Part shown: positions 18,544 to 24,775 of the stretch, one piece after another
Position numbering within the stretch: the first letter of the stretch is position 1
Layout: the number at the start of each line of letters is the position of its first letter
From: Candidatus Cloacimonadota bacterium
GTDB taxonomy: Bacteria; Cloacimonadota; Cloacimonadia; Cloacimonadales; PWNZ01
Assembly (NCBI GenBank): GCA_003564155.1
Contig: PWOA01000076.1
Location: 1 to 55,588 of the forward strand
Reading direction: 5' to 3'
Length of the DNA stretch: 55,588 nt
Position numbers and translations under genes: made by a program
The notes under the pieces: generated by a model
Told to the model about the DNA's origin: nothing
The model's database searches: none
Seen by the model: only the letters and a program-made list of their open reading frames with translations

Positions 18544-18560
18544 GATGCATAAACCCTAAT

Positions 18561-18678
18561 TCCGAAAAGTTGAAGCCAAATTGTACCGGCAATCGGTTAT
18601 GGCGAGACGGTAAATATGGATCATATATAGCCCGTTCAAAATTTTGCCAACAAAAAAATGAAATTGATTCATAAGGTA
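18561..18678 (+). repeat. diverged copy of the dispersed element seen at 24030..24151
   Basis: Shares GAAAAGTTGAAGCCAAATTGTA.. on the left and ATTTTGCCAACAAAAAAATGAAATTGATTCATAAGGTACTAA on the right. Confidence 0.55.
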
Positions 18679-18702
18679 CTAAGTATTTATTGAATTATTA
18701 AA

Positions 18703-23850: not shown

Positions 23851-24260
23851 ATGGTTCAACTAGTATCAAGGGATCAGGAGTAGACGAAACTGTCAAGTAG
23901 ATTCGAGCCGGAGGAGGGATGGATTTTCCTCTGGAGCATTGGAGCAAGATTAAAAGTACCAATCCTATAGAACGGATCAATAAAGAGCTTCTTCGCAGAG
24001 ACAGAGTTGTTGTTATCTTTCCTAATGCGGACAAGCCGGAACCAAAATGTAGGGGCAACCCTTGTGGTTGCCCATTATCGGGCAGGGGCAAGCCCAGCCC
24101 CTACAATGAGAATATTCTGCCAAAAAAAACATGAATATTTTTGATAAGGTACTAATGCGAAAAGCTGCATGAAGCTGATAGGAGCCCAGCTTCAAGATAT
24201 CTCTGAGAAATGGTTGAGCAGTCAGGAATACTTGACAAATCCGATAGCAAGAATTAAAGA
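23851..24260 (+). pseudogene. IS256-family transposase pseudogene
   Basis: 5' end AAGGAGGTAGAAAATG (MVQLVSRDQE*), then MDFPLEHWSKIKSTNPIERINKELLRRDRVVVIFPNA, interrupted, then AKSCMKLIGAQLQDISEKWLSSQEYL. Confidence 0.8.
24030..24151 (+). mobile_element. 122-bp small insertion element (MITE-like) carrying a GTAGGGGC...GCCCCTAC hairpin
   Basis: Flanked by direct repeats CTAATGCG (24022..24029 and 24152..24159); removing it restores the transposase frame. Confidence 0.75.
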
Positions 24261-24358
24261 ACATCAAATGCATAATAACGTAATGCAAAAACACTCGATA
24301 AAGCCGGTAATAATGAGGTGGAATTTACACCAACATTTGAGACACTACTAAAACTTCT

Positions 24359-24423
24359 AAGAAACCATTAGGGAGAGTAGGAGTCGAATAGTATCCGACT
24401 CCTACTCTCCCTAATGGTTTCTT
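24359..24423. repeat. perfect 28-bp inverted repeat with 9-nt loop
   Basis: AAGAAACCATTAGGGAGAGTAGGAGTCG-AATAGTATC-CGACTCCTACTCTCCCTAATGGTTTCTT. Confidence 0.9.
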
Positions 24424-24775
24424 ATTGGTAGGAATACCAAAAAATGCAAAGTACCAAGATCTTCCAGACTTTGGTATTCTATTCTTCGTCAGTATATCAA
24501 AACTATATCCGGTTAAATATTGGTTTGCATCTAAAGGGTAAACTTATTGGGGAGAAAAGCAAAATATCTTTTACACGGCTTTTATGCATTCATTTATTTA
24601 CTGCATTATCCGAGTCGAACTATGTTATTCACAAGATATCTTTTTAAGAGTTTATCAGGAAACCTGTAGCAATTACTGATTATGTAGATACTTGGAAATT
24701 ATTGCCGATATATCGGTTAATTTCTTAATAAGATAATTATAAAAAAGACACTAATTTTAGATTATCAATTCAAGT

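Follow-up and report, generated by a model that had tools for sequence, protein, structure and literature searches.

The window, by which we mean the whole 55,588-nucleotide stretch of Candidatus Cloacimonadota DNA under analysis, carries on its forward strand (as it does the insert, its parts and the second copy described below) the remnant of an IS256-family transposase gene (Pfam PF00872, E 7e-10), interrupted after the codons CCT AAT by a hairpin-rich insert of non-coding DNA. The part 5′ of the insertion occupies positions 23919–24020 (profile positions 323–358) and the part 3′ of it positions 24155–24310, its flank starting ATGCGAAAAGC and translating as NAKSCMKLIGAQLQDISEKW. The octamer CTAATGCG stands at both sides of the insert, and deletion of one copy together with the insert restores the IS256 reading frame (...VVVIFPN|AKSCMKLIGAQLQDISEKW), such that the restored stretch reads PNAKSCMKLIGAQLQDISEKW. 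In all of this the original prediction was right; the insert that it had put at 122 bp is, however, a net insertion of 130 bp, spanning 24025–24154 directly 3′ of the target CCTA (24021–24024, host IS256 sequence). The same insertion recurs in a further IS256 copy at the beginning of contig C46 (98% identity over 295 bp), so it predates duplication of this IS256 copy.

The insert (ATGCGGACAAG...AAGGTACTA) can be divided into three parts. Its left end (24025–24050) forms a small hairpin, GCGG-ACAAG-CCGG, with one stem mismatch in the GCGG arm, and follows the form YCTA|AYCYGGACAAGCCRGAACCAAA that we derive below (left-end profile E 1e-8 over 24021–24050). The interior (24049–24104) is a GTAG-headed REP doublet (GTAG hairpin ... 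hairpin CTAC) of REPIN/BIME-like appearance, with DNA fold z-scores of −2.6/−3.0. The right end (24111–24154) consists of a hairpin, AATATTC...GAATATT, followed by TTTTGATAAGGTACTA, and conforms to a shared pattern of hairpin plus TAAGGTACTA (right-end profile E 2.7e-9 over 24113–24155). A second, degenerate copy of the same kind, CCTA|ATTCCGAAAAGTTGAAGCCAAATT...CATAAGGTACTA, lies at 18559–18681; its right end was detected by profile (E 0.00055), its left end by visual inspection alone. A near-perfect palindrome, ACCATTAGGGAGAGTAGGAGTCGAATAGTATCCGACTCCTACTCTCCCTAATGGT (24356–24431; L002, L028), follows shortly after the IS256 remnant, and a RAYT pseudogene locus on C109, another contig, contains a close copy of it. 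At the window site, Rfam returned nothing beyond chance miRNA matches on a nearby palindrome.

A 138-bp query gave 24 matches in the host genome, which holds about 15–20 copies of the element, so that the original prediction was not refuted for want of other copies. When these were aligned with their flanks, a fixed left end of ~26 bp and a fixed right end of ~45 bp enclosed a variable interior, which consists of REP doublets in many copies, single palindromes in two (L012, L014) and unrelated hairpins in two others (L017, L019). Other genera of the order (G001, G019, G027, G044) keep the ends around unrelated interiors. Because the ends are constant and the interiors are not, it is its ends that the element conserves, as one would expect if a transposase reads them. 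These ends are not inverted with respect to one another, the left being CCTA|AYCYGGACAAGCCRGAACCAAA and the right AATATTCTGCC..GAATATT..TAAGGTACTA. One host locus (L023, contig C107, 40.0–40.9 kb) has two inverted left ends with no right end recognised between them, and is possibly a rearranged element. Three host copies (L003 on C107, L004 on C82 and L007 on C55) abut the 3′ end of a RAYT pseudogene or its tail.

The same ends extend well beyond the host. An exact search with a degenerate left-end pattern, for which we estimate a chance expectation well below one match, found at least 118 stretches, distributed over Chloroflexota, Bacteroidota (with Ignavibacteria), Desulfobacterota, Nitrospirota, Acidobacteriota, Bacillota, Pseudomonadota and Cloacimonadota. 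Among 117 distinct left-end sequences, two base pairs of the hairpin stem show covariation, C-G being exchanged for T-A (Fisher p 8e-21 and 2e-8, values that are overstated because the sequences are related; the search pattern fixed Y and R at these positions but not their combination). Right ends from seeds in several phyla align nearly gap-free as TTCTTGCC.AAAAA.CAAGAATTT......TAAGGTACTA, and the right-end hairpin folds clearly in several members. Rfam searches of autonomous and miniature copies gave nothing above gathering thresholds.

Insertion occurs directly 3′ of (C/T)CTA without duplication, as can be read from three empty sites and from seven identical full-length copies. The latter, each of 1663 bp, lie at seven unrelated sites in an Anaerolineales genome (G127); all seven have CCTA to the left of ACCCGGACAAGCC, end in GGCACTA and then pass into unrelated sequence. 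The empty sites, AAAAG(T/C)CTA|CTG(C/T)A.., come from three Cloacimonadota loci (L043, L177, L181) in a dispersed ~110-bp repeat and correspond to filled sites of the form AAAAG(T/C)CTA|ACYYGG...GGTACTA|CTGCACAA; this flank may itself be mobile, and the junctions agree. The repeat in question is palindromic, ends AAAAGYCTACTGCACAAAATGGG and houses Cloacimonadota elements at L033, L038, L043, L048, L177, L179 and L181, with empty copies also present. For the copy on a Paraburkholderia plasmid, an empty site was sought among plasmids and the filled record alone was found. Across 63 complete copies, CCTA precedes the left end in 59, and the match at the two ends beyond the shared CTA amounts to 0 bases in 18 copies, 1 in 34, 2 in 5, 3 in 3 and 4 in 1; the two outliers are the window copy (5 bases) and one tandem copy (10 bases). 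Tandem host copies have CTAA in common.

These junctions bear on the original reading of the insert as MITE-like, flanked by an 8-bp target duplication. Mobilisation as a classical MITE by a DDE transposase, for example that of IS256, would account directly for CTAATGCG at both sides in two host IS256 copies, but the ends are two different hairpins without inverted repeats (their lack of obvious inverted repeats had been seen correctly), 61 of the 63 complete copies match at 4 bases or fewer beyond CTA with the tandem copy as the only other exception, and the seven identical autonomous copies show no duplication. We regard such a DDE origin as barely credible, and reject IS256 as the mover for want of terminal inverted repeats and of an 8–9-bp target duplication. 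The flanking repeat of CTAATGCG thus stands as an observation but falls as a target duplication, and the search for further copies with 8-bp duplications came out against it. Since nearly every left end begins A-Y-C-Y-G-G, the ATGCG of the window copy is, on comparison of the aligned ends, a slightly mutated left end, one change from ATCCG, that happens to match the right flank; the shared CTA plus this ATGCG match make up the apparent 8-bp duplication, and either chance or a local conversion may account for it. What survives of the MITE-like description is a small, non-autonomous element that is presumably moved in trans and whose empty site can be reconstructed; lacking both terminal inverted repeats and an 8-bp duplication, it falls outside the MITEs of DDE/IS256-type transposons.

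The interior of the window copy raises the possibility of a different mover. GTAG REP doublets are RAYT-type repeats (PMC3733652), and the insert might accordingly be a REPIN/BIME moved by a RAYT, an IS200/IS605-like Y1 transposase. The GTAG...CTAC doublet itself speaks for this, as do Y1_Tnp matches in the host (one to a pseudogene adjoining the copy at C55:39709) and the occurrence of the same RAYT tail beside L003 and L004. However, the ends persist around REP-free interiors (L017, L039, L052), the same doublet occurs without these ends in two other genomes (G001, on contig C106, and G016), and what the autonomous copies encode between these ends is an unrelated protein, no transposase with a Y1_Tnp domain having been found between ends of the family. 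We therefore reject the RAYT as mover, because the same ends enclose other interiors, and judge this explanation very improbable. The doublet resembles REPIN/BIME sequences (PMC3733652), yet it is passenger DNA and does not form the ends of the element. The window copy thus makes for a nested locus, with a RAYT-type GTAG REP doublet within a mini-transposon within an IS256 remnant.

An autonomous element with the same ends, which the original prediction had proposed looking for, exists in other genomes, and its protein is the candidate mover. Autonomous versions measure 1.6–1.7 kb and hold one gene of ~500 aa, and left ends at several loci precede such a gene. In a Prolixibacteraceae genome (L071, Bacteroidota), a left end, a 500-aa gene and a right end that directly follows the stop codon make up a complete 1.6-kb element; the same gene lies between the same ends in a complete element from Anaerolineales (L163, Chloroflexota) and on the Paraburkholderia plasmid (L182), where it carries the annotation ArsR regulator on account of its C-terminal winged helix. 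G127 also contains a second subfamily, whose three near-identical copies have different hairpins and follow the same rule, with CTA at the left junction and GTGACTA at the right end; L256, from a viral contig, has similar flanking sequences. Plasmids of Caballeronia, Mycobacterium and Rhodococcus (L183, L184, L185) carry a third, distant branch of the ~500-aa protein family, hypothetical where annotated. Viral contigs yielded three relatives only.

The host assembly (82.6% complete) gave no transposase gene, and when the host and 125 genomes of its phylum were searched with the protein, none matched at 1e-5. For one order-mate (G044/G125) this is because contigs break inside multi-copy elements: five contigs are interrupted within the left end or first codons, and the last codons plus right end are found at six places, the pattern to be expected when an assembly collapses a multi-copy element.

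We compared the ~500-aa protein with Pfam, NCBIfam, PHROGs and PDB sequences and found no significant match except for the C-terminal winged helix. Neither the L071 nor the L128 protein passed an IS family cut-off in NCBIfam 20.0, which places the protein outside every IS family modelled there; the Pfam search gave no match to PF02486 (Rep_trans), and we therefore liken the protein to Rep_trans in its working and do not file it as a member. In Rep_trans catalytic domains the catalytic residues lie on β-strands, whereas the tyrosine of HUH enzymes lies on a helix. Rep_trans endonucleases are characterized by an N′ aspartate, RxD, T/SxY/ExG, YxKxxE and W/L-R-x-E motifs, with a tyrosine nucleophile and D-D-E metal ligands (PMC5714925). 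Across nine of our proteins (18–55% identical to the first), D146, K315, Y317, K319, L324, R325 and E327 are invariant, among others, and D20 (in a CxDR motif) is present in every one that covers that region. The N′ aspartate (D20), motif III YxK (Y317-x-K319) and motif IV LRxE (L324-R325-x-E327) are thus found, in order; of motif I, D146 is invariant and the arginine absent, and motif II is not recognisable. The resulting KxYxK...LRxE is comparable to RIYNKKQE...WRVE in pT181 RepC, as read from its plasmid.

An AF2 model of the catalytic half (pLDDT 78, pTM 0.78) places D20, D146, Y317 and E327 all on β-strands, Y317 being on strand 312–319. Foldseek against the PDB gave few matches of probability above 0.5, most of which are TATA-binding proteins (TBP; best E 0.016–0.03, not significant), and RepDE was absent from the best 50 matches listed; the Rep_trans fold has been compared to TBP (PMC4797284). 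The matches in a viral library included A0A2N9QVX7 (E 4e-5, probability 1.00) and an inovirus protein, and A0A2N9QVX7 and an inovirus Rep_trans protein are reported as matches of Rep-Arvir, an experimentally supported Rep_trans relative (PMC13107129). The N-terminal domain of the transposase therefore probably resembles Rep_trans, with a predicted TBP-like sheet, on evidence that is good, not conclusive, and that for the fold assignment rests on shallow alignments.

The same family and the same ~500-aa transposase could instead be built on an unrelated or HUH-type catalytic core. The moderate AF2 models, the non-significant PDB matches, the incomplete Rep_trans motif I and the unrecognisable motif II leave some room for this; against it, KxYxK...LRxE and two further acidic residues are invariant, the tyrosine is modelled on a β-strand, the invariant columns of the nine proteins contain no HUH motif, and the fold matches include TBP-like and inovirus proteins. 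We consider a core of another type unlikely, though deserving of some weight. The explanation we favour, and hold to be likely, sees in the insert a non-autonomous member of an IS superfamily whose insertion 3′ of (C/T)CTA leaves no duplication and whose autonomous members encode a ~500-aa transposase with a Rep_trans-like catalytic domain and a C-terminal winged helix. Relative to the family libraries searched (Pfam, NCBIfam, PHROGs, PDB), we conclude that this superfamily is undescribed, and a literature search among open-licence papers turned up neither this element nor a Rep_trans transposase.

At the level of sequence, the comparisons establish the ends, the target, the lack of duplication, recent multiplication and a gene between the same ends; from these we infer tyrosine catalysis, a single-strand intermediate and mobilisation of the window copy in trans. 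The most probable mechanism is single-strand transposition, in which the transposase would recognise the two different subterminal hairpins on single-stranded DNA and cut via a phosphotyrosine, behind CCTA on the left and behind ACTA on the right, with Tyr317 as putative nucleophile and the acidic residues D20, D146 and E327 joining it in the catalytic domain. The strand between the cuts would be excised or copied (a choice between cut-and-paste and copying that we can only infer) and then joined 3′ of CTA in single-stranded target DNA. With respect to replication, the orientation of insertions in G127 (14 versus 13, in a genome of weak GC skew) gave no signal for the lagging strand.

Elements of the IS200/IS605 group and their miniature derivatives (PATEs) lack inverted repeats and duplications, have subterminal hairpins and insert 3′ of a fixed short sequence. 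The new family resembles them further in the related short sequence at its right end and in its multiple non-autonomous copies, and departs from them in a transposase of ~500 aa with a C-terminal winged helix and no HUH motif or Y1_Tnp match, in its (C/T)CTA target and in a hairpin located 2 nt from the left cut site. With IS91, ISCR and Helitrons it has in common the absence of duplication, a hairpin near the end and a probable tyrosine endonuclease functionally related to rolling-circle initiators; those, however, are HUH Y2 enzymes with two tyrosines, whereas the new family has a single invariant tyrosine, in KxYxK, on a modelled β-strand. Further parallels to the predicted enzyme are with Rep_trans/Phage_CRI initiators, MobT relaxases and Rep-Arvir (PMC13107129), in the YxK tyrosine, the order of the putative D-D-E ligands, the predicted TBP-like sheet and the hairpin substrate; Rep-Arvir and the C-terminus of the new family are also alike in having a winged-helix domain (PMC13107129). 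Known Rep_trans members replicate plasmids or phages or transfer ICEs, whereas the new family would use its enzyme for transposition and has no PF02486 match.

Many non-autonomous interiors (L055–L172, L218–L245) are the repeats ccacgaaggacacgaag, gcaaaggcgcaaag and accacagattacacagatt, which yield spurious ORFs in environmental genomes. Among 103 left ends with enough sequence, 34 precede the repeats CACGAAG/TTCGTG, GCAAAGGCGCAAAG or ACAGATT, and inverted-repeat arms of at least 10 bp occur in 18% of interiors versus 1% of control segments. On balance we lean, with some reserve, towards the broader reading that these elements form an unrecognised class of bacterial transposon with a Rep_trans-type tyrosine transposase (neither HUH nor DDE), present in at least eight phyla, whose non-autonomous copies carry and disperse some of the palindromic repeats (ccacgaaggacacgaag, gcaaaggcgcaaag, accacagattacacagatt) that abound in environmental genomes.

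An orphan insert thereby gains a candidate mover, and a large transposon superfamily emerges that is missing from the family libraries tested and whose genes are currently annotated as “hypothetical” or “ArsR regulator”. The (C/T)CTA target, the lack of duplication and the hairpin ends open the way to direct cleavage assays on single strands. Should the enzyme prove Rep_trans-like, transposition would be added to plasmid and phage replication and conjugation, the only processes for which this nuclease fold is known. The non-autonomous copies would account for how some of the palindromic repeats came to be spread through many environmental genomes, and for the spurious ORFs that arise there.
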